In this document: positions 30,139 to 42,491 of the stretch, one piece after another
Position numbering within the stretch: the stretch's first letter is position 1
How the letters are laid out: every line of letters begins with the position of its first letter
Assembly: GCA_030613065.1 (NCBI GenBank)
Contig: JAUWMQ010000008.1
Coordinates: 1-43,076 of the forward strand
Origin: Candidatus Aegiribacteria sp.
GTDB lineage: Bacteria; Fermentibacterota; Fermentibacteria; Fermentibacterales; JCC-6
DNA length: 43,076 nucleotides
Reading direction: 5' to 3'
Position numbers and translations under genes: made by a program
The notes under the pieces: model-generated
Database searches by the model: none
Seen by the model: only the letters and a program-made list of their open reading frames with translations
Told to the model about the DNA's origin: nothing

Positions 30139-30189
30139 ATCTACTCATTCCTCATTCCTCATTCAGTGGATTGTATATGGAGGTTGAAT

Positions 30190-30783
30190 TTGGGCATCAG
30201 CAACAGGGATAAACTTCTTCAGGCAGGGGTTGAACTTCTGTCCGAAAAGACATTCTCGCAGATATCCATGGATCAGGTCGCGGAATCATCCGGTGTTTCA
30301 AAACCGATGATCTACTATTACTTCAACAACAAAGAGGGGTACTACAAGGCCCTTGCGGGGCACCTTCTGAAGATTGCACGATCAGTAACAATGAAACTCT
30401 TCCAGCCCGAATTGAGCCTGAGGGAGAACCTGATTAATTACGTTCGCTTCCGGATTGAATACGTCCAGAATAACCAGGGTTTCTCAAGAGCCTTCATGTC
30501 AATGATCACGGACCCCAACATAGGTCTGCTAATCGAAGAAATGCAGGAAGAATTCAACATTATGCGCATGGAGTATATCGATCCGATGTTCGATAATGCC
30601 GTGAGTAAAGGTGAAATCCTGCCTGACACGAACAGGATAATGGTAATTATGATGATCAACTCAGTTCTTGTTTCTTTTACCATGAAGATCCTTAATGAAT
30701 TACCGTGCCATAATGAGATTAATCCGGAAGAAATTGTAGATATAATATTCAACGGAATATCAGTACGCGGAGAGGATAAATAA
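30190..30783 (+). CDS. TetR/AcrR-family repressor of the efflux operon
   Basis: About 197 residues. N-terminal helix-turn-helix: 'NRDKLLQAGVELLSEKTFSQISMDQVAESSGVSKPMIYYYFNNKEGYYKAL'. The all-helical C-terminal ligand-binding half is divergent, as usual in the family. Start revised to TTG at 30190 (MGISNRD...): GGAGG ends 6 nt before it, while the ORF-track start at 30166 has no Shine-Dalgarno. It is the first gene of the operon with tolC, MFP and RND genes (4-bp gap, then ATGA overlaps), and a palindrome sits in its promoter, so autorepression with release by an efflux substrate is likely. Confidence 0.93.
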   Translation: MGISNRDKLLQAGVELLSEKTFSQISMDQVAESSGVSKPMIYYYFNNKEGYYKALAGHLLKIARSVTMKLFQPELSLRENLINYVRFRIEYVQNNQGFSRAFMSMITDPNIGLLIEEMQEEFNIMRMEYIDPMFDNAVSKGEILPDTNRIMVIMMINSVLVSFTMKILNELPCHNEINPEEIVDIIFNGISVRGEDK

Positions 30784-30787
30784 TCAA

Positions 30788-32086
30788 ATGAAGTATTTGG
30801 CAGCGATAGCTCTGTTGATAAGCCTTAATGCGGAGGCAGTCTCCCTTGAAGAGGCTGTTGGAATAGCGCTTCAGAACAGGGGTGATGTACAGTCAGCCCT
30901 GATGTCTTACGAAAGCGCGGTATGGAAAAGCAGGAATGCCGATCTCTGGTTTCTGCCGAATGTGAACGGTCAGCTTGCTTTTTCAAAAAACTTTGATGTT
31001 CAGGAAATGACAATTCCAGGTATGGGTTCGATTCCAATGGGAACCGAATACTCATCAATTGCCGGAGTTTCAGTAACTGTTCCTCTCTTCGTGCCACAAG
31101 GGCCTGCGGGATCGCGCATGGCATCGAGGGCAGAGGAGCTTTCTCTGCAGCAGTCCAGGGCTGCTGAGATGGATGCGGTTGTACAGGTTGTTAGGGCTTT
31201 CTACGGTGTTCTTCTGGCGCAGGAAATGATGGATGTTTCAATTGAAGCAATTGATATCGCTGAAGCCGGTTACGAACTTGCGGCTCTAAAATATGATGCA
31301 GGTACAATTTCCCGATTTGAACTGCTTCAAAGCCGCGTTGCCTGGGAGAACAGGAAACCTGACCTGATCTCGGCTGAAAACGCCCTTGATAATGCCTTTG
31401 CCGGTTTTGCGGTAGCTCTCGGGCAGGATAACGATGCTCATTTCCAGATAGAGGGCAGTCTTGATGATAAACCCGGTTTCAAGATGCCCGAAACCCTTGA
31501 GGAAGCGCGTGAAAACATGTACCTTAACAATCCCGATCTACAGGCGGCTGAGTACATTGAACTTGTTGGTGATGCGGGAGTGGATATGGCCAGGGCTTCG
31601 TTCCTGCCTCAGCTGGTTTTCCAGACAGACCTTAATTACCTTGCGGCAAGAAATGATGCGCATTTTGAGATAGATGATTATGACAGGAATCTGGTGGCTT
31701 CAGTGGCTCTTCAGATTCCTCTTTTCAACGGCTTTTCCGATATTTCAGGCTACAATGCAGCCAGGGCCGAAAGGGTTTCATCAGCTGCTTCAGCTAGAAG
31801 TATCAGGCAGGTCACAGATCTTTCGCTGGTGTCAGCCTGGAATAATCTCCAGGCAGCCAGAGAGGGCGTCAATGCAACATCTTCAACTGTTGCACTGGCT
31901 TCTGAGGGGGCCTCTATCGCCAGCATCTCTTATGAAGCCGGCATGATAACACGTCTTGAAATGGATCAATCCTTTCTGGCTCTTACAACCGCCAGAACCA
32001 ATCACGCCCGGGCACAATACAACTTGCGAACCGCGGAAGCTGAGCTGATGAGAGCTTCAGGCTTAATGGAAGGATACATCAGATGA
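30788..32086 (+). CDS. TolC-family outer-membrane efflux protein
   Basis: 432 residues with a signal peptide (MKYLAAIALLISLNAEA). Two OEP repeats: 'SLEEAVGIALQNRGDVQSAL...AVWKSRNADLWFLPNVN' and 'NNPDLQAAEYIELVGDAGVDMARASFLPQL', each followed by long Ala/Gln-rich alpha-helical stretches that form the periplasmic tunnel ('LAALKYDAGTISRFELLQSRVAWEN', 'ISYEAGMITRLEMDQSFLAL'). It forms the trimeric exit duct for the RND pump encoded downstream. Stop overlaps the MFP start by 4 bp. Confidence 0.93.
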   Translation: MKYLAAIALLISLNAEAVSLEEAVGIALQNRGDVQSALMSYESAVWKSRNADLWFLPNVNGQLAFSKNFDVQEMTIPGMGSIPMGTEYSSIAGVSVTVPLFVPQGPAGSRMASRAEELSLQQSRAAEMDAVVQVVRAFYGVLLAQEMMDVSIEAIDIAEAGYELAALKYDAGTISRFELLQSRVAWENRKPDLISAENALDNAFAGFAVALGQDNDAHFQIEGSLDDKPGFKMPETLEEARENMYLNNPDLQAAEYIELVGDAGVDMARASFLPQLVFQTDLNYLAARNDAHFEIDDYDRNLVASVALQIPLFNGFSDISGYNAARAERVSSAASARSIRQVTDLSLVSAWNNLQAAREGVNATSSTVALASEGASIASISYEAGMITRLEMDQSFLALTTARTNHARAQYNLRTAEAELMRASGLMEGYIR

Positions 32087-33162
32087 GAAATTACAGATTC
32101 GGTATACTGATAACGACAATTCTAACAGGTGTATTTCTGTCTATTGGCTGCGGTCCCGGCCAGGCAGATGAAGAGGAACCTCCAGTACGGGTATCCATTG
32201 AAGTTGTGGAACCCTTTGATATTTCAAGCATCGCTTATGCCAGCGTAAGGGTTGAAGGACTTGAAGAAGCTCTCATATATGCTCTTACACCTGGAAAAGT
32301 GGAGGAGGTGCTTGTTTCCGAGGGTGACAGTGTTGTCGCAGGACAGCAGCTTGTAAGACTGAATACCGATCAGCAGGCCAGCGCTGGAACAGCGAGTGCT
32401 GTGGCCGGAATCAGCGCCGCTCAGGCCAACGTTGACAACGCGTCAAGTAATTACAGAAGGATGCAGTCACTTCATGAAGCTGGAGGCGTCAGCGAGCAGC
32501 AGCTTGAAGGTGCTCTTGCATCTGTTCAAGCAGCTGAGGCCCAGCTGAGTCAGGCAAGAGCCGGCTATTCTCAGGCAAGGACCAATCGAGACAATTCATG
32601 GATAACGGCACCTTTTGATGGTGAGATTGGCAGAATATGGGCGCGAGAAGGCAATTCATCCGCCGGCTCTCCACTGATATCAATCTCCAACAACTCCGTA
32701 ATAGTAGCCAGAATACTTCTTCCGGAAGAGAATCTCCTCGACCTGAAGCCAGGTCTCCCGGCATTTATTACCATCAGCTCGCTGGATAATGAATCTTTCC
32801 CCGGGATGGTCACATCAGCATCATCAACAGTTGATCAGATCAGCGGACTGGTTCCCGTTGAGGTCAGGTTTGATGATACCGGCGGAAGACTCAGGCCCGG
32901 GATGGCTGGCAGGGTGGCCGTTCTTACTGAAACGATCGAGAACTCGATCGCTGTTCGTGAAAGTACTCTCAGGAGAACCCATTCAGGTTTTCAGGTTGTG
33001 GTTATTGAGAACGGTAAAGCTGTGATAAGGGACGTTCAGGTTGGTATTTTCAGTGAAGGAATGGTTCAGATAACAGAAGGGCTGAATTTCGGAGAATCTC
33101 TTGTTGTAGCAGGCCAGACAATGATTCAGGACGGATCCGATGTGGAAGTAGTGAGCCAATGA
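32083..33162 (+). CDS. RND efflux periplasmic adaptor (membrane fusion protein)
   Basis: 359 residues, lipoprotein: the signal ends in lipobox LSIGC (Cys near residue 23). HlyD/AcrA-type order: a split lipoyl half 'ALIYALTPGKVEEVLVSEGDSVVAGQQLVRLN', an Ala/Gln-rich coiled-coil hairpin (~95-165), the second lipoyl half 'ITAPFDGEIGRIWAREGNSS', then the beta-barrel and membrane-proximal domains ('LRPGMAGRVAVLTETIENSIAVRESTL'). It links the inner-membrane pump to TolC. It overlaps both neighbours by 4 bp. Confidence 0.94.
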   Translation: MRNYRFGILITTILTGVFLSIGCGPGQADEEEPPVRVSIEVVEPFDISSIAYASVRVEGLEEALIYALTPGKVEEVLVSEGDSVVAGQQLVRLNTDQQASAGTASAVAGISAAQANVDNASSNYRRMQSLHEAGGVSEQQLEGALASVQAAEAQLSQARAGYSQARTNRDNSWITAPFDGEIGRIWAREGNSSAGSPLISISNNSVIVARILLPEENLLDLKPGLPAFITISSLDNESFPGMVTSASSTVDQISGLVPVEVRFDDTGGRLRPGMAGRVAVLTETIENSIAVRESTLRRTHSGFQVVVIENGKAVIRDVQVGIFSEGMVQITEGLNFGESLVVAGQTMIQDGSDVEVVSQ

Positions 33163-36100
33163 GACTGCCGGAATTATCAGTTAAAAGACGTGTAGCTTTC
33201 CTGATGGTCTTCATTGCGATACTGGGTACGGGAATATTCGGTCTTACCCAGCTTGGTGTTGATATGTATCCCGATATGGAATTCCCGATGATAATGGTGA
33301 TGAGTACCCTGGAAGGCGCCGGACCCGAGGAAGTGGAGAATCTTGTTACTAATCCCCTTGAGCAGGCTCTTGCGAGGGTATCCAACGTCAAGAAAGTTTC
33401 ATCTACTTCGCGGGCGGGGATCAGTATTGTAACAGCCGAATTCAATTGGGGACATAGTCTCGATCAGGCTGAAACTGATGTCAGAAGGCAGCTCGATATG
33501 TTCGATGCGATGCTGCCCGAAGATGCCAGCGATCCTCTGGTATTCGCACTTGATCCAAGCATGCAGCCTGTCCTGTATGTTGGTTTCAGCAGCGAGATGC
33601 TTAACGATTTTGATCTCCGAACACTTATCATGGAGGAGATTGAACCGCTGTTCAGCAGGCTGGATGGTGTGGGATCGGCCGTAACAGCAGGTGGTCGCGA
33701 GAGACAGATAAATGTTGAAGTGAACCCCTCAGCCCTTATGGATGCGGGGATTACCATATCTCAGGTTGTTGGAGCCTTGAGTTCTGTCCGTAACAATACT
33801 CCGGCGGGAAGAATCGATGCCGGCGGGATGAACATGAGCATCAGGGTTGAATCCGCTTTCCACAGTATCGCTGAGATAGAACAACTTGTTGTAGGTATAA
33901 ATGCCGGATCTCCCGTTCTGCTCCGTGATGTGGCATCAGTCCAGGATGGTCAGGCGGATGAGCTGCAGTACGTCAGATTCAACGGACGGCCATCGGTATC
34001 GATGTATCTGAACAAGAGATCGGATGCTAATACCGTCAACGTGTGTGCAAGAATACGTGATCAACTCGATGAAATATCGGCTGACTACGGGAGTATTCTC
34101 ATACCGGTTGTTCTATTTGACCAGTCGGAATTCATAGAGCAGTCCATCAACAATCTGGGAACAACAGCCATTCAGGCATGCTTTCTGGCTTTTCTGGTGC
34201 TGCTTTTCTTCCTCAGATCATGGAAGAGCTCATCCATTGCTGGAATATCAATACCCATCTCCGTTTTTGTGACCTTTGCCGTAATGCACTTCACCGATGT
34301 GCAGCTGAACATGATATCTCTGGCTGGCCTTGCTCTGGCCATAGGTTTGCTTGTGGACAATGCTATCGTAGTGCTTGAGAACATCTTCAGACACAGGGAG
34401 AAGGGTGAGTCTCCGAGGGATTCAGCTGTCAACGGAGCGTTGGAAGTATCCAATGCGATAACAGCTTCGACGCTCACAACCCTTGCCGTCTTTATTCCCA
34501 TTCTTTTTGTTCCAGGCATAGCTGGTGAACTTTTCAAGGAAATGGTTCTTACGATCACATTCAGTCTCACCATATCTCTCTTTGTGGCACTGAGCCTTGT
34601 TCCGTTGATCGCTTCATGGACAAAGAACCTTGTGCCTGTATTCAAACCACGCAGCATTTCCGGCAGAATAGGCGGGGTGATCGATGCATTTGAAAAGAAA
34701 TACAACAGGCTGGTTTCCTGGGCCGTTAATCACAAAAAGGTCGTTCTGATCTCAACCGCGGCGGCTTTCATTCTGGCAATAGTGATGGTCGGCAGGCTTC
34801 CGTCCGATTTCTTTCCCGAATCCGATGATGGATTTATGATGATGGATGTGGAGGAGCCGATAGGTACCAGTCTCGAAACGACCGATGCAGCAGTAAGAGC
34901 GCTGGAGGATTCCATCAAGGCTATTGTTGCTCCCGAAGATCTGCTTGCGCTGTTCACCACCGTTGGAGAAGCCGAAGGTATAATGGCAATATTCGGTGGC
35001 AGCAGCTCAAATGCTGCCATGCTGAGGGTGAGATTAACGCCATCCAGTCAGCGAAGCACTACCATGTTCGAGTATCAGGACAGGATAGGGGAAGTGTTGA
35101 AAGACATGCCCGGAATTGAGTATTCAACGGAAGCAGGTATGTCACTTTTGTCATCCTCACCAATAGAGATCACGTTGTATGGCGACGATCTGGACCTGTT
35201 GTTCGAGAAGGCCGATGAGATAAAAGAAGCCATGTCGCAGATAGAGGGCGTCAGGGATGCCAGAACATCCATGCAGGAACTTATTCCTGAGTACTCTTTC
35301 ATTCCTGATCCTGTTAGGCTTTCTCTTCTGGGCATGACGCAATCCCAGCTGGCCATGGATGTCAGGTACGGTTTTCAGGGATCACGGGCCAGCATATATC
35401 GCGAAGGTGATGACGAGTACAATATTTTTGTCAGGTATCCCGAGAATCTGAGGGATTCCAGAGAGGACCTGGAATACGCATCTGTTCTGGGAAGACCTTT
35501 AATATCCATGGGTTCCCTTGATCAGAGGGTAGTATCGAATACGATTACAAGAAAGAACCAGGCAAGAATGGTTACAATTTCCTGTGATGTATCCGGAAGA
35601 TCTTTAGGTGAAGTGTCAGCGGATGTCGTTGCAATGATGAAGGAGATCGACACTAACGGTTTCAGATATGAAATGGGCGGCGAGATGAAGGATCAGATGG
35701 AAACCTTCATGTACCTTGGAATCGCTATCATGGTTGCCGCTGCTCTTGTCTATATGGTTATGGCCGGGCAGTTCGAATCATTCCTTGAACCCTTCATAAT
35801 AATCTTCACATTGCCACTTGCCTTCATTGGAGTAGTTCTGGGATTGTTCGTTACCTCAACATCACTGTCGGTCATGGCGATCATAGGAATGCTGATGCTT
35901 GCCGGAATAGTGGTTAACAATGGTATCGTAATGGTGGATTACGCAAATCAGCTGCGGAGATCAGGAATGGAGATAAAGACTGCGATTGTTGAAGCTTCCA
36001 CTACCAGAATGAGACCTATTATCATGACCGCTGCAACAACCGTACTGGCAATGTTCCCGCTTGCGCTTGGAATCGGTGAGGGGGCAGAGACATGGGCGCC

Positions 36101-36194
36101 GATGGCAGTAACGGTTATTGGTGGACTGTTCGTAGCCACTGTGCTGACGCTGGTTGTAGAACCCTGCATTTATGTAATATTCAACCGCAAATAG
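33159..36194 (+). CDS. RND-family efflux transporter (AcrB/HAE1 type)
   Basis: 1011 residues, full HAE1 length. TM1 follows 'LSVKRRVAFLMVFIAILGTGIFGLTQLGVDMYPD', with the first porter domain 'NLVTNPLEQALARVSNVKKVSS'. The TM4 proton-relay segment is 'GLALAIGLLVDNAIVVLENIFRHRE', where AcrB's Asp-Asp pair is Asp-Asn, a variation common in HAE1 relatives. The second half repeats the fold and ends 'PMAVTVIGGLFVATVLTLVVEPCIYVIF'. Proton-driven export of drugs, dyes or lipids from the periplasm. Last gene of the operon; no clear terminator follows. Confidence 0.95.
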   Translation: MRLPELSVKRRVAFLMVFIAILGTGIFGLTQLGVDMYPDMEFPMIMVMSTLEGAGPEEVENLVTNPLEQALARVSNVKKVSSTSRAGISIVTAEFNWGHSLDQAETDVRRQLDMFDAMLPEDASDPLVFALDPSMQPVLYVGFSSEMLNDFDLRTLIMEEIEPLFSRLDGVGSAVTAGGRERQINVEVNPSALMDAGITISQVVGALSSVRNNTPAGRIDAGGMNMSIRVESAFHSIAEIEQLVVGINAGSPVLLRDVASVQDGQADELQYVRFNGRPSVSMYLNKRSDANTVNVCARIRDQLDEISADYGSILIPVVLFDQSEFIEQSINNLGTTAIQACFLAFLVLLFFLRSWKSSSIAGISIPISVFVTFAVMHFTDVQLNMISLAGLALAIGLLVDNAIVVLENIFRHREKGESPRDSAVNGALEVSNAITASTLTTLAVFIPILFVPGIAGELFKEMVLTITFSLTISLFVALSLVPLIASWTKNLVPVFKPRSISGRIGGVIDAFEKKYNRLVSWAVNHKKVVLISTAAAFILAIVMVGRLPSDFFPESDDGFMMMDVEEPIGTSLETTDAAVRALEDSIKAIVAPEDLLALFTTVGEAEGIMAIFGGSSSNAAMLRVRLTPSSQRSTTMFEYQDRIGEVLKDMPGIEYSTEAGMSLLSSSPIEITLYGDDLDLLFEKADEIKEAMSQIEGVRDARTSMQELIPEYSFIPDPVRLSLLGMTQSQLAMDVRYGFQGSRASIYREGDDEYNIFVRYPENLRDSREDLEYASVLGRPLISMGSLDQRVVSNTITRKNQARMVTISCDVSGRSLGEVSADVVAMMKEIDTNGFRYEMGGEMKDQMETFMYLGIAIMVAAALVYMVMAGQFESFLEPFIIIFTLPLAFIGVVLGLFVTSTSLSVMAIIGMLMLAGIVVNNGIVMVDYANQLRRSGMEIKTAIVEASTTRMRPIIMTAATTVLAMFPLALGIGEGAETWAPMAVTVIGGLFVATVLTLVVEPCIYVIFNRK

Positions 36195-36447: not shown

Positions 36448-36493
36448 TTGACAATGCCCCTTTGAAATCGTGATATATCATTTTGATATGTAA
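36448..36493 (+). promoter_or_regulatory. Promoter with palindromic operator upstream of the GT-MBL fusion
   Basis: TTGACA (36448-36453), 17-bp spacer, TGATAT (36471-36476). Overlapping the -10 and start-site region is the perfect palindrome ATATCA-TTT-TGATAT (36475-36489). The 23-bp block 36471-36493 matches 20 of 23 positions in the promoter of the 41029 gene, implying a shared regulator, most simply the nearby PadR protein. Confidence 0.7.
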
Positions 36494-36674
36494 GATTTCG
36501 AGACACAGAGATGAACATGGTGTTTTCACTGCCGCGCTGCCATATGCCGGTACCGAAGGAAGATACTGGCGGTTCACAATCGAACCGGACTTCATACTGG
36601 CATGTCCTGAAAATCCTGAAGCCGGATATCAGAAAATCTTCATCATCTCTCTGCCGCAGTTACGATTGGAGTAA
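36483..36674 (+). CDS. Possible small protein upstream of the fusion gene
   Basis: Open frame of 63 codons ending 2 bp before the fusion gene's ATG. The last ~50 codons ('VFTAALPYAGTEGRYWRF...PENPEAGYQKIFIISLPQL') have codon use like neighbouring genes and look coding. The beginning is unclear: the only in-frame start, TTG at 36483, lies at the predicted transcription start and has no Shine-Dalgarno, while an ATG at 36511 is in another frame. It may be a leaderless small protein, or a short gene with a frameshift. Unknown function. Confidence 0.35.
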   Translation: MICKISRHRDEHGVFTAALPYAGTEGRYWRFTIEPDFILACPENPEAGYQKIFIISLPQLRLE

Positions 36675-36676
36675 TT

Positions 36677-38692
36677 ATGGATCCCGTTGTAATCGTTCTG
36701 TATGTGTCACACTCAATCACTGTGAGAAACGCCGCTCTGTTCATAAAGAGCATCCGAAGATTCGGTGGGTACATGAAGAATACGCCGATTCTGGTCATGA
36801 ACGATCAGGCGGCAAAGCTTGATCTGTCCCTGCTTGATCTCACCGGAGTGACAGTGTATGACATTGAGATAAATCCGGTTCACAGACACTTCCTGTTTTC
36901 AAAGAAGGTGCACGCATGCGCCACTGCTGAAAGGCTGCTTGAGGGAAAAGCAGAAATGCTTTTGTATTTCGATACGGAGATGCTGGCATTTTCGGATTTC
37001 AGCCCTATTCTGCTGAAGAAAGATTTTGATGCTTCACTGCGCCCTGTGATGCTGCTCAACACAGTCGGACAGAGTCCTGATAAAGCGCTGGACGGCTACT
37101 GGAAAAGAATATATCAGGAATCGGGGATTGATGAATCGACCGTTCCTGTGCTTCGCGCATATGTGGATGAACAGGATATGCGGTTTTACATCAATTGCGA
37201 GGTTATGGCAATACGACCCGAGCTTGGGATACTAAGGGAGTGGCGGAAAGCATTCCTGAAAATAATAGACGACAAAGCCTTTACAGAAAGCTTCTGCAGT
37301 GAGCAACTTCACTATATTTTCCTGCATCAGGCGGTGCTGAGTGCAGTGATCCTGTCTAAAACAGAGCCATCGCGTATCCAGTGGATACCGGACAGTACAG
37401 TCTATTCAGTACTGCTCCATGAACAGATGCCAAAGCATAAAAAAGTGTCCGACGCGGATGCCATTCCGATAATCGGATATGATCTTCAGTTCTCGGGGGA
37501 TCCGGCAATGATACTGACTTTCACCGTCAACGAACCCCATCGCACATGGGTCATTGATAATTACTGCGGGTTCCTTCAGGAATCACCGAAAATTTACCGC
37601 GAAGAAGGCGACTGCAACACTGTGGTTGTTCTCACGGAGAAAGGTTACATACTTGTTGATCCTTCACGGCCGCAGGGCATGGATTCCTGGCTTGCGCTGA
37701 AATTCAGACACATGACACCTGAAGCGGTGCTTTTCACACATGCGCATCAGGACCACTGGAACGGCCTGGCTTACTGGAATATTCCGGAAAAAACACCGAT
37801 GATCATCCAGCGCAACTGGATGGAAACTGTTGAATATCTGGAAAGATTTGAAGCATTTCAGGAACGCAGGAACAGAGCATTCACTGCTGGGAAATGGATG
37901 CCTCAAAAGCAACTTAAAATGATCACGCCGACCGAGGTTTTTCCGGATGAAACAAGCATGACTCTGTCTGGTCTGGAAGTTCGTATGTTGCACACACCTG
38001 CGGAAACCACGGATACCTCGGTGATCTGGTTTCCCGGACTGAAGCTGGCTTGCACCGGTGATACGGTATCTTCCGGATTTCCAATGCTGGGTACGCCCAG
38101 GGGGTCAATGCCGCGATTTGCAGATAACTACATCCGTGCTATTGATATCCTGCTCTCATTGAATCTGGAGCTTTGCATTGCAGGGCATGGCGAGCCGATC
38201 AGGGAAAATACCGCAATTACATCATGCCTGAAAAACCGTCGGGATGCCGTGGAATATGTTAACAATGCGGTAATACGGGGAATAAACAATGGGATAAGCG
38301 TGCATGAGCTTGTTTCTGAAATATCTCTGCCGATGGAATTGCAGTTGCCTGAAACCTTCAGCAGAATAGCCTGGTCTGTACGGGGACTTTATCAAAACTA
38401 TACCGGCTGGTACGACGGAAACATAACAAGCCTTCTGGATACCCCGATATCGTCTGTGTTCACCGACATTGTAAAGACATGGGGCGCCGGGACACTGATA
38501 ACTCTGGCTGAGGAAAAGCTGTCTGAAAACGATGCGCAGAGTGCGCTGCACATAACCGACCTTCTGCTGAGGGCAGCGCCCCATGATCAAAGAATATCAG
38601 AAATCCGCAGGAGAGCTTGCGAAATTCTTTTTAAAGGATGTCGGAACTGGGGAGAATCGAATCTTATCAAGGACGAACTGCTCAGATACTGA
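36677..38692 (+). CDS. Glycosyltransferase-like / alkylsulfatase-type metallo-beta-lactamase fusion
   Basis: 671 residues, no signal peptide. Residues ~1-280 look like a GT-A nucleotide-sugar transferase-type domain ('VIVLYVSHSITVRNAALFIKSIRRFGG', 'MLLYFDTEML' as the DxD-like site, 'MRFYINCEVMAIRPELGILREWRKAF'). Residues ~295-670 are a metallo-beta-lactamase domain with 'FTHAHQDHWNGL' (~352, metal ligands), 'TPAETTDTSVIWF', 'LACTGDT' and 'IAGHGEPI', followed by the dimerisation-type segment 'WSVRGLYQNYTGWYDGNITSLL' typical of BDS1/SdsA-like alkylsulfatases. TTGGAG lies 6 nt before the ATG. I know of no described fusion of this type. Substrate unknown; the N-terminal call is weaker than the C-terminal one. 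Confidence 0.85.
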   Translation: MDPVVIVLYVSHSITVRNAALFIKSIRRFGGYMKNTPILVMNDQAAKLDLSLLDLTGVTVYDIEINPVHRHFLFSKKVHACATAERLLEGKAEMLLYFDTEMLAFSDFSPILLKKDFDASLRPVMLLNTVGQSPDKALDGYWKRIYQESGIDESTVPVLRAYVDEQDMRFYINCEVMAIRPELGILREWRKAFLKIIDDKAFTESFCSEQLHYIFLHQAVLSAVILSKTEPSRIQWIPDSTVYSVLLHEQMPKHKKVSDADAIPIIGYDLQFSGDPAMILTFTVNEPHRTWVIDNYCGFLQESPKIYREEGDCNTVVVLTEKGYILVDPSRPQGMDSWLALKFRHMTPEAVLFTHAHQDHWNGLAYWNIPEKTPMIIQRNWMETVEYLERFEAFQERRNRAFTAGKWMPQKQLKMITPTEVFPDETSMTLSGLEVRMLHTPAETTDTSVIWFPGLKLACTGDTVSSGFPMLGTPRGSMPRFADNYIRAIDILLSLNLELCIAGHGEPIRENTAITSCLKNRRDAVEYVNNAVIRGINNGISVHELVSEISLPMELQLPETFSRIAWSVRGLYQNYTGWYDGNITSLLDTPISSVFTDIVKTWGAGTLITLAEEKLSENDAQSALHITDLLLRAAPHDQRISEIRRRACEILFKGCRNWGESNLIKDELLRY

Positions 38693-39070
38693 CCACCCGC
38701 AATGGAAGTAATTTTCACGGTTAGCAAACCCAATGGTGGTGGGGTTATAGAATTACTGCAAATTGCTTCTGGAATCACCGTGACTTTATCGCAAAGAAGG
38801 CTATTGCAACGATGACTACCTGCCCTGGCGGGATGATGACCCCGGAACCGGTACGGCACTCGAGATGGCGAGTACGGCCAGATGGGTAAGCTGGCAAGAA
38901 TTATCATCGGAGCAGCCACTCTCTCCGAGGGTAACTTGAGCGGTGCGCTCAATAAGATTCTGCCTAAGAACCTCCGGTGAAACATCCATAGCTTATGATA
39001 AATGCGCACTGGAAATGTGAGCCGTTGTGATTGAGGCCGCCACAGCGACCTCAATTTCTTTCAGGGTCTG
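38693..39070. other. Intergenic region with decayed coding sequence
   Basis: About 380 bp between convergent genes. 38882-38980 (+) is a 32-codon ORF with native-looking codons ('GKLARIIIGAATLSEGNLSG...') and its frame is readable upstream as 'RDGEYGQM', but there is no start or Shine-Dalgarno; it looks like the 3' remnant of a lost gene. A hairpin, ATTGAGG/CCTCAAT followed by TTTCTTT at 39032-39062, could terminate plus-strand transcription. Confidence 0.45.
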
Positions 39071-41029
39071 TTATCTCAGGATAGTGAAGCGGAGAGTGGA
39101 GGAAGTTCCTGCTGTGCTGGTGGCAAGGGTATAGACTCCGACTGGAAGATCTTTCAGATTGATGCCGGTTGAGATATCATTTATCATTCCCTCTGATACC
39201 CTGCGTCCGGTGATGTCGAAAATGTTGTAAGAGGTCCCGGGGGAGGCGTTGATAAGATTTACTGTTTCAGCCGCAGGGTTCGGATGAACCTGTAATGGGC
39301 TCTGCTCTTCCTGGGAAGTCCCCTGAGAAGCATCCTCTATTTCCAGAAGGTAAACATCATAATCTCCGTCATCTGTCTCTCTCTGGCCTGCAATCATGTA
39401 TGAGCCTGTTCCAGTTGGAGTAATTGCAGTACCCCATTCATCTGTTGATTCCTGTCCAAATTCCTCCGTCCATACCTCTTCACCATTCTCGTTCAGCTTT
39501 ACCACAAAGAGATTATTGTCGCAGGAGTACCTGTCTTTCGTCGCGCCCACGATCAGGAAACCACCGTCTGGGGTCTCAATGATATCGTTCGAATAATCAT
39601 AGAAAGTGTTGCCGTGGAATGTTTCTGTAATCTTCTGGCCATTTCCGTCTGTGAGTATGAAATACATGCCGCAGTTGTCGGGATCATTGGAATCTCCGGT
39701 AATCGCTATGTTGCCGTCTGAGGTTTCAACAGCTGCATTTGCACGGTCATAACCTCCTTCGCCGCCCTGAGCTCCGTAGTAATATTCCCAGATGATGTTT
39801 CCATCCATGTCTGTTAATATTGAATAGGCATCACAATTAGCTGTAAATGATCCGGTAGAACCGGTTATCAGAATGTTTCCGTCTGATGTAATCTGAACAT
39901 GGTCTGCCGTTTCGGGTCCCGGGCCACCGTATCTCTTCTCCCAGAGAATATTGCCTGAGTTGTCCGCCATTATCATAAGAACATCGCTTTCTCCTGCAGT
40001 ATTTTCAGTGGTGTAGCCGCAAAGTAGAATGTTGCCTGCAGAAGTTTCAGTAACCGACATCGCGATATCAAGGCTGTCACCGCCGAATGTTGTTTCCAGG
40101 ATAATGATGCCACCAGTATTTGTTCTTACAAGGTAGAAATCCTCATTGCCGGCTGATGTGCTGTAACCGCAGGCAATGTAGTCTCCATTTGAAGCTTCAA
40201 TTACAGAGTTTCCATACTCAAATCCTTCTGAACCGAAGGACTTTATCCAGATTGTATTCCCCAGCGAGTCTATTTTTTGAAGAAGGAGATCGCTTTTGCA
40301 TCCTGGATTACTGAAGTCGTAACCGGTCAGGATGAAGCAGTTATCAGCAGTCATAGTTACATCCCGCGCTCCCTGGGAGAAGTCTCCGGCCCGGCAATTT
40401 GAACGGGAGGTTGTTCCGGCTAATGCAGCTGCTGAGATTACGGCTTGACAGCTCTCCCGCTGGTAGTACTGCCCTCTGGTGGTGGTGATGATGTTCTGGT
40501 CAATGACAGGAAGTAGACCCCATCCAATGTAATTTGCCCCTGCTGCTTCATAGATCACCACATAACTGCTGTCAGGTCCGCTGCGGCCCTGAATTGTTAC
40601 CCCCGAGAGAACATCTGCTGCGGCCAGTACCAGAGGACCGGCGCATGTTGCCCAGACAGGTATGGAACTGGTAGCTGCTTCTGATATCAGGGAGATTGCC
40701 TCGGGGCTTGTTATCAGATCGTTATAGGGCTCTGTTACGCCCTGCCATCTGGAAGGCATGACGGCAACTGCATCAAACATGCCAATGTCCTGAATTTCGC
40801 TTATCAGAGTGTCCACCGTCAGAATTGGAAGACCTGAGTTGCACGGGGTAACAGTTTCGTTGATTCCGGCAGTGGTTGTTATGAATCCCATTTCCTGAAA
40901 ATGGTCGATGTTGAAATTGTAATTGGCACCGTAGAGATGCGGGACAAGAAGAAGGATATGCTGATCTTCTGCTTCTGCGAGGGAAAAGAAAAGAAGAAGG
41001 CCACAGATAAGAGTTAGGTACTTTTTCAT
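39071..41029 (-). CDS. Secreted DJ-1/PfpI-like domain + beta-propeller repeats + Por-type tail
   Basis: 652 residues from the ATG at 41029, where AAAGGAG lies 4 nt upstream and a signal peptide starts (MKKYLTLICGLLLFFSLAEA). Residues ~22-200 resemble DJ-1/PfpI/GATase1, with the nucleophile elbow 'VWATCAGPLVLAAADVLSG' (Cys ~128). Residues ~215-560 contain six or seven ~50-residue repeats ('TSDGNILITGSTG...DMDGNIIWEYYYGAQGG'), a likely beta-propeller. The C-terminus ('VHPNPAAETVNLINASPGTSYNIFDITGRRV...LPVGVYTLATS') is a type IX/Por secretion tail. Exported, probably cell-surface. Its promoter holds the operator shared with the fusion gene. Confidence 0.88.
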   Translation of the reverse strand: MKKYLTLICGLLLFFSLAEAEDQHILLLVPHLYGANYNFNIDHFQEMGFITTTAGINETVTPCNSGLPILTVDTLISEIQDIGMFDAVAVMPSRWQGVTEPYNDLITSPEAISLISEAATSSIPVWATCAGPLVLAAADVLSGVTIQGRSGPDSSYVVIYEAAGANYIGWGLLPVIDQNIITTTRGQYYQRESCQAVISAAALAGTTSRSNCRAGDFSQGARDVTMTADNCFILTGYDFSNPGCKSDLLLQKIDSLGNTIWIKSFGSEGFEYGNSVIEASNGDYIACGYSTSAGNEDFYLVRTNTGGIIILETTFGGDSLDIAMSVTETSAGNILLCGYTTENTAGESDVLMIMADNSGNILWEKRYGGPGPETADHVQITSDGNILITGSTGSFTANCDAYSILTDMDGNIIWEYYYGAQGGEGGYDRANAAVETSDGNIAITGDSNDPDNCGMYFILTDGNGQKITETFHGNTFYDYSNDIIETPDGGFLIVGATKDRYSCDNNLFVVKLNENGEEVWTEEFGQESTDEWGTAITPTGTGSYMIAGQRETDDGDYDVYLLEIEDASQGTSQEEQSPLQVHPNPAAETVNLINASPGTSYNIFDITGRRVSEGMINDISTGINLKDLPVGVYTLATSTAGTSSTLRFTILR

Positions 41030-41055
41030 TTTGCTCCTTTCATCAGGGCAGAAGT

Positions 41056-41084
41056 ATAATATATCAAAATGATACATCAGTCAA
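41056..41084 (-). promoter_or_regulatory. Promoter of the 41029 gene with operator shared with 36448-36493
   Basis: On the minus strand TTGACT (41084-41079), 17-bp spacer and TATTAT (41061-41056), 27 bp before the start codon. The spacer contains GTATCATTTTGATAT (41061-41075), 14 of 15 identical to the palindrome in the fusion-gene promoter; identity is 20 of 23 over the wider block (41057-41079). Confidence 0.75.
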
Positions 41085-41220
41085 TCTTTGTCCGATTTCA
41101 ACTCGTGAATCTCTCTCGGTGAATATCCAGAAAGCCATGAAATTAAATGATATAAGTATTTCAGGGAAGGGAGTAATTGTAACTGATTCGAGTGGGTTGT
41201 TTCAGCAACCTATTGGATCA

Positions 41221-41811
41221 TCAGTCTTTTTTGATGTGTATCTCGTCTTTTCGGGGGCGGTTATCCAGCCTTTGAAGGCAGGACATGCTCCATTCTATCA
41301 TCATTCTCGTGTATCGATACCAGAAGTCCATTGTCATTCTTCTGGTTTCAAGCTGAAGAGACGGTTCCAGCCCGTCAATATGCTGAAGACCTTCATAGAG
41401 TTCAGGCAGAAGGTCTTTCTGGTGATCAAGGTGTGCTCTGAGCAACTTTTCAAGGGCATCTTTCCCCATTGGATACCCGAAACGAAGCTTTAGAAGTAGT
41501 TCGATCTTTACCGGGCGCTGTTCCGCAGGAAGTTTCAGCCAGTGTCCGACCAGCTCGCGTCCCTTATCTGTAAGCCCATAAGCGATTCGTTTGCGGCCGG
41601 TTTTTTCGGAGAGTGTTTTAGTGGTAAGGCCAAGTTGAGTCAGATGACTCAGGTTGGGGTAGATGCTTCCGAAAGAATCGCGCCAGAAGACCATTTCCCT
41701 TGAATCAATCAGTTTTTTTATCTCATAACCGGTCATCGGTCTTTCACTGAGAATGGCCATAAGAGCCAGAGCGGATACTCTCAGCTCTGGTGCTGTATTG
41801 ATGTTTGTCAT
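41221..41811 (-). CDS. PadR-family transcriptional regulator
   Basis: 196 residues. The N-terminal winged helix-turn-helix has the PadR signature: 'ALALMAILSERPMTGYEIKKLIDSREMVFWRDSFGSIYPNLSHLTQLGLTTK...GRKRIAYGLTDKGRELV'. A C-terminal helical Vir_act_alpha_C-type dimerisation region ('LLLKLRFGYPMGKDALEKLLRAHLDHQKDLLPELYEGL') follows. PadR regulators repress promoters carrying short palindromes and are released by small ligands. The ATG overlaps the upstream gene's stop (ATGA). It lies 190 bp from the promoter at 41056, the natural candidate target, and 4.7 kb from the second copy of that operator. Confidence 0.93.
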   Translation of the reverse strand: MTNINTAPELRVSALALMAILSERPMTGYEIKKLIDSREMVFWRDSFGSIYPNLSHLTQLGLTTKTLSEKTGRKRIAYGLTDKGRELVGHWLKLPAEQRPVKIELLLKLRFGYPMGKDALEKLLRAHLDHQKDLLPELYEGLQHIDGLEPSLQLETRRMTMDFWYRYTRMMIEWSMSCLQRLDNRPRKDEIHIKKD

Positions 41812-42491
41812 TCAATAGACCCCGGGAGAAGGATTGCGAATGAGCATCTGTCTCCGCCGGAGCATACAGTATCAAGTATTTCCACACTGACAGGTCTTTC
41901 AAGAATAGTTTCCCATATCCACCGATAGAATCCGGCACCGCAATGGCAGTACTCGACCGGAATCAGAACATTCGCAGCCACAGCACTACTGACTTGTGAA
42001 CAATGGCAGTAAAGTTCTCTCTGCCTTCCATGATCGCTCTCACTCATGTATTGTCTCAGGTTTCCGCTTTTCGGGATCTTTGTGACAAGAATCCGGTTGC
42101 CTTGCCTTTTTCCGGCAACACCCCATCCTTGATCCAGAATCCAGTCAACGATCTCCTGTTCAAAGAGCATACCTTCCCGAAGAGAATCCTCAAGTTGCAA
42201 ACTGAGTTCAGAGATGGCATCATCAATACTTCCATTTTTCAGGTAGGCTTTTCTTGCCTGAAAAAGCTTGCCCGTTGGGTATCGGCAGGCGCAGCTGGAA
42301 AGGATCTCAGCTGTCTGAGCAGAAGTCAGATGTATTTCCATTCGCTTGAGTACTTCACGAATCCACGAGGCCTCTTCACCGGTCTCAGAAGATTCAAACC
42401 TATCCATATCCGACAATATCACCCCAAGGATATCTTTCCCACAAACCCTCTCAAGATTGCAAGAGAGCTTGTCTCTCCAGTTGTTGTTCAT
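41808..42491 (-). CDS. V4R/DUF6144-like cysteine-rich protein
   Basis: 227 residues from the ATG at 42491, which follows GGAGG by 5 nt; the 62 extra residues in the ORF track read through the upstream intergenic region. The first half is helical ('LERVCGKDILGVILSDMDRF', 'ILSSCACRYPTGKLFQARKAYLKNGSIDDAI'). The second half carries 'LYCHCSQVSS', 'VEYCHCGAGFYRWIWETILERPVSVEILDTVCSGGDRCSFAILL', the pattern of 4-vinyl-reductase/DUF6144 domains, with Cys residues placed to bind a metal or small ligand. It is co-transcribed with and overlaps padR, so it may sense or modify the PadR ligand. Family assignment from memory. Confidence 0.75.
   Translation of the reverse strand: MNNNWRDKLSCNLERVCGKDILGVILSDMDRFESSETGEEASWIREVLKRMEIHLTSAQTAEILSSCACRYPTGKLFQARKAYLKNGSIDDAISELSLQLEDSLREGMLFEQEIVDWILDQGWGVAGKRQGNRILVTKIPKSGNLRQYMSESDHGRQRELYCHCSQVSSAVAANVLIPVEYCHCGAGFYRWIWETILERPVSVEILDTVCSGGDRCSFAILLPGSIE

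Follow-up and report, generated by a model that had tools for sequence, protein, structure and literature searches.

A local PadR-family regulator is likely to control two promoters, 4.6 kb apart, through the same dyad in Candidatus Aegiribacteria sp. (Fermentibacterota), as judged from the DNA sequence. Both promoters lie in a stretch of 43,076 nucleotides (the window; contig JAUWMQ010000008.1) taken from a MAG of 2.81 Mb. The PadR protein would act as a dimer with the 17-bp dyad TATATC-N5-GATATA as its operator, occupying one predicted site at each of two sigma-70-type promoters (Table 1). Repression of both promoters is the most likely outcome given that one site overlaps a -10 and the other falls between -35 and -10; it would proceed via blockage of RNA polymerase, as suggested by site position and by the LmrR, PadR and LadR family, and PadR would be released by a ligand at its Vir_act_alpha_C region. 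The regulated products would then be a secreted DJ-1/propeller protein and a GT-like/MBL protein. The PadR regulon of two promoters thereby proposed appears to be well supported: a solid but ordinary small circuit.

Table 1. Features of the predicted PadR regulon (positions are those of the window)
Feature	Position	Strand	Description
Promoter 1	36448..36476	+	-35 TTGACA 36448-36453, 17-bp spacer, -10 TGATAT 36471-36476; read from sequence
Operator 1 (predicted)	36474..36490	+	TATATCATTTTGATATG; 11/12 match to PadR-clade dyad TATATC-N5-GATATA
GT-MBL leader	36500..36672	+	C-terminal remnant, ~55 codons, of a 6-bladed beta-propeller gene; tblastn E 1e-7 to 1e-8
GT-like/MBL gene	36677..38692	+	671 aa; metallo-beta-lactamase 310-504, alkyl-sulfatase dimerisation 543-657
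DJ-1/PfpI + beta-propeller + Por secretion tail	39071..41029	-	652 aa, signal peptide; same architecture in G011 (GLR63)
Promoter 2	41056..41084	-	-35 TTGACT 41084-41079, 17-bp spacer, -10 TATTAT 41061-41056; read from sequence
Operator 2 (predicted)	41060..41076	-	TGTATCATTTTGATATA on - strand; 11/12 match to dyad TATATC-N5-GATATA
padR	41221..41811	-	196 aa; PadR + Vir_act_alpha_C; recognition helix FWRDSFGSIYPNL
DUF6144 protein (Cys-rich)	41808..42491	-	Overlaps padR start; earlier "V4R-like"

The sequences of the two sites, their positions and their 20/23 similarity are all as the first-pass annotation had described them, and its placement of the pair is seen in the sequence: the operator 1 dyad overlaps the -10 of promoter 1, while that of operator 2 occupies the 17-bp spacer of promoter 2. 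Past operator 1, the ~170 bases that lead to the GT-MBL start encode the tail of a propeller, with homology starting ~10 bp beyond the operator; the tblastn matches of this leader were two propeller genes of genome G036, near a GT-like gene. In the window the GT-MBL gene is convergent with the DJ-1/propeller gene, not downstream of it as in the congener Ca. Aegiribacteria sp. GLR63 (G011). As the leader is the tail of a deleted propeller gene, promoter 1 probably derives from an operator-propeller-GT operon: the ancestral order would have been operator - propeller - GT, which is still seen in GLR63 with the DJ-1/propeller gene, and in the simplest account a deletion took out the propeller body and left the GT-MBL gene under the operator.

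That promoter 1 is a rearranged promoter, fused to a propeller remnant, bears on how the sites would work: PadR may bind and activate one or both promoters, or the promoter 1 site may be a functionless leftover of the rearrangement. AphA, which activates at some promoters, is moreover among the closest solved relatives of the window PadR. We nevertheless consider activation or a functionless leftover unlikely, since both sites lie on core promoter elements, a position typical of repression, and since the promoter 1 dyad is preserved as well as that of promoter 2.

Judged by its Pfam matches, the window PadR is of the long type of the PadR family (PadR + Vir_act_alpha_C): the winged-helix domain scored 53.4 bits to PF03551 (cut-off 27) and the C-terminal Vir_act_alpha_C region 38.5 bits to PF10400 (cut-off 22.4). 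Adjacency alone is insufficient to name PadR, and the question asked was which inverted repeat typifies PadR promoters. A PadR alignment search of genome contigs yielded homologues in Coatesbacteria (53% identity), Aminicenantes, Silvibacterium and others, and 396 further genomes from the phylum of one homologue yielded thirty additional padR loci. TATATC-N5-GATATA was present upstream of padR in several of the homologues. When every 5-mer inverted repeat with spacers of 0-14 was enumerated over 61 PadR upstream regions, TATCG-N3-CGATA, the core of the 17-bp dyad, ranked first (11 of 61 regions; at most two in shuffles), and TATATC-N5-GATATA itself was among the top 6-mer arms. Furthermore, the degenerate core TATCR-N3-YGATA was found in 12 of the 61 upstream regions versus 3 among 891 control windows taken elsewhere in those loci (Fisher p 6e-13, a value that overstates independence because the PadR homologues are kin). 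At the level of single genomes, the padR promoter was the sole genomic match to the dyad at <=1 mismatch in G061, and it held the sole perfect genomic match in both G063 (6.5 Mb) and G036. The Coatesbacteria homologue, with the same helix as the window PadR, has the dyad TATATCATACCGATGTA upstream of its gene.

The window and GLR63 contributed no dyad to the 61-region set, having no core dyad before their own padR, so a scan of the window is close to an independent test: matches of 11/12 to TATATC-N5-GATATA were the two sites only. Over the whole genome there were 13 matches at <=1 mismatch, thus the two window sites are not unique. Given the dyad before padR relatives in other phyla, PadR very probably acts through both window sites. 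Strict TRTATCANNNTGATAYA matches in G003 and G010 were rejected as chance, as they lie at a gene end or inside a coding gene, without a padR nearby. In Silvibacterium (L149 7844-7902), an RPE65-type carotenoid oxygenase gene and padR diverge from an intergenic region that contains dyads, an arrangement which suggests PadR control of the oxygenase gene.

The core also followed the recognition helix. Among PadRs with an SFGS/YGS-I/L-YP helix, the window PadR included, TATCR-N3-YGATA was found in 10 of 14, versus 2 of 47 for the others (p 6e-7, a guide only, as the grouping was made post inspection and the proteins are kin). Both the window PadR and that of GLR63 carry the helix DSFGSIYP and have the dyad at a linked target gene, and on these two grounds they fall in the TATATC-N5-GATATA PadR clade as defined here. 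Neighbouring Fermentibacterota PadRs with other helices are associated with other dyads: TATAGTACTATA for YWRESYGNIYP and TATACTAGTATA for FWDVNFGQIYS (upstream regions at L027, L029, L030, L032, L169, L172, L173 and L181).

Autoregulation is usual for PadR regulators. In the window, no dyad precedes the DUF6144-padR pair (best 7/12), and in GLR63 a weak one, TATATTAATCGGATAGA (10/12), lies shortly 5' of the DUF6144 gene; PadR autoregulation is thus not visible here. With no dyad ahead of it, padR could be a mere neighbour, with the sites bound by another regulator, e.g., the TetR encoded at 30166-30783 or one encoded elsewhere. Several lines of evidence make such a regulator improbable: i) the dyad class lies upstream of padR homologues in several phyla; ii) it tracks the PadR recognition helix; iii) the genome's two further PadRs fall into other types, and the dyad is absent near them.

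An exact 14-mer is common to both promoters, which none of 4000 shuffled pairs had. In a scan of the 2.81 Mb genome for the site, as the first-pass annotation had proposed, the inner 13-mer TATCATTTTGATA occurred three times, two of them in the window, and any TATCA-N3-TGATA occurred 12 times, with two in the window within 4.6 kb. The third exact TATCATTTTGATA (C16:8566) was discarded as a candidate site: it lies inside an 80-aa ORF and is not recognisable as a promoter. Within the window only, the 15-mer at <=3 mismatches gave four matches versus 2.2 expected, which is not significant. The dyad was also found in the promoter of a TPR gene in G014; it is not kept at the same promoter in other congeners and was deemed an accident of -35/-10 sequence.

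In GLR63 (contig WTBT01000086), the order is DUF6144 gene (56%), padR (69%), DJ-1/propeller gene (42%) and GT-like gene (55%). The four genes are contiguous on one strand, with the GT-like gene ~20 bp 3' of the DJ-1/propeller gene, and the DJ-1/propeller promoter carries two back-to-back dyads, TGTATCAATCCGATATA and TATATCAATCTGATACA, directly after TTGACA. Thus the four-gene set, whose co-occurrence in relatives had been put forward as a check, is found again in a congener, where the DJ-1/propeller promoter also has the dyad. Between the window and GLR63 dyads the arms are conserved and the central triplet changed (TTT to ATC). The GLR63 GT-like gene is interrupted ~110 codons in by a repeat that matches 12 times in that genome, a probable insertion element (L054 8373-8499), and the contig ends at the cut, so the MBL fusion is not readable there. 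Across the genomes of the phylum searched, the full DJ-1/propeller architecture was present in none other than GLR63. A chance likeness of AT-rich promoters, with TGATAT/TATATT-like -10 sequences simply resembling each other, would accord with the fortuitous look of the G014 dyad and with relaxed window matches that are not significant alone, but it is very hard to credit given the exact 14-mer in both promoters, the mere three copies of the 13-mer in 2.81 Mb, and arms that GLR63 keeps while the spacer changed.

As to the targets, the second half of the GT-MBL protein bears the HxHxDH motif (THAHQDHWNG) and matches PF00753 and PF14863 above cut-off, in agreement with its earlier assignment as metallo-beta-lactamase plus alkyl-sulfatase dimerisation domain; its nearest relatives are YjcS, Pisa1 and SdsA1. 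The N-terminal 300 aa have stand-alone ORFs as homologues in G036 and G019. Across three homologues, this half had no match in Pfam with E values up to 5, and "GT" is the label of an earlier reader. A search of genome contigs with the GT-MBL protein found no relative, and relatives elsewhere in the phylum were partial. Downstream of the gene and outside any likely gene, a 60-bp segment (38751-38810) is 80% identical to 37559-37618 of GT-MBL, and is possibly the remnant of a second copy. For the DJ-1/propeller gene, the start is the ATG at 41029, which gives a signal peptide, and not position 41077; domain matches bear out the DJ-1 assignment as well as the secretion tail. Promoter 1 is closely preceded by a TetR - TolC - membrane fusion protein - RND efflux operon (30166-36194), and in L057, L059 and L062 related MFP-RND genes are neighbours of other PadR genes.

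The first-pass annotation had envisaged a small regulon with V4R-like/PadR as ligand sensor. The regulon itself has gained from the dyad being the operator class of a clade in other phyla and from the gene set in the congener; the part given to the V4R-like partner is not supported. All seven homologues of the partner match DUF6144 only, with no V4R at E up to 5, and a role as dedicated sensor is likewise unsupported, since congener homologues lack a padR and lie in another neighbourhood, several of them near nifS/nifU. In G007, a nifS neighbourhood contains a C-terminal fragment of a window-type PadR (L056 13288-13473; 56% identical), at the position that holds the DUF6144 gene in other congeners.

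AphA and PadR of known structure have operators and targets that differ from those of the window PadR. They are likewise long PadR proteins (PDB 1yg2 and 6jyi, respectively), and the sequence match covers residues 17-143 of the window PadR. The local repressors PadR, LmrR and LadR recognise ATGT-N8-ACAT operators (PMC4517056, PMC5050560). The window system shares with them the PadR winged helix, the local control and a dyad in the core promoter; on the other hand, its dyad is TATATC-N5-GATATA with a 5-bp centre, neither site reads ATGT-N8-ACAT, neither phenolic acid decarboxylase nor drug transporters are among the targets, and its own promoter is without an operator. For cdPadR1 of Clostridioides difficile the operator is GTACTAT(N2)ATTATA(N)AGTA (PMC5050560), which, like the predicted window sites, is an inverted repeat rich in A and T and close to the core promoter; cdPadR1 however is of the short PadR-s2 subfamily and has another half-site. 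Among enzymes, SdsA1, YjcS and Pisa1 (PDB 2cfu, 4pdx and 2yhe) resemble GT-MBL in having an MBL fold followed by an alkyl-sulfatase dimerisation domain, whereas GT-MBL is without an evident signal peptide, has an extra N-terminal 300-aa domain, and is without an SCP2-like Pfam match, ending 14 residues past the dimerisation domain. A search of mainly open-access literature turned up no published PadR operator of the form TATATC-N5-GATATA, a weak sign that it is new.

Lying 22 bp past the Coatesbacteria padR is a gene for a secreted FG-GAP propeller (L138 8520-10583), whose Por-type tail matches below the Pfam cut-off; in this one case it parallels the DJ-1/propeller gene of the window. A wider proposal, at present doubtful, is that PadRs of one clade spanning phyla, which read an operator code of their own (TATATC-N5-GATATA) with an SFGS-type helix, repeatedly govern secreted beta-propellers that end in a C-terminal sorting tail, namely the DJ-1/propeller in Fermentibacterota and the FG-GAP propeller in Coatesbacteria; if true, the clade would regulate surface or secreted propeller display rather than detoxification. 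As it stands, the predicted regulon assigns two specific promoters as targets to a PadR of an uncultured candidate phylum, with a concrete candidate operator. To our knowledge few operators are known in the PadR family, and the correlation of helix and operator across PadR clades suggests a readable specificity code for this large family of regulators.
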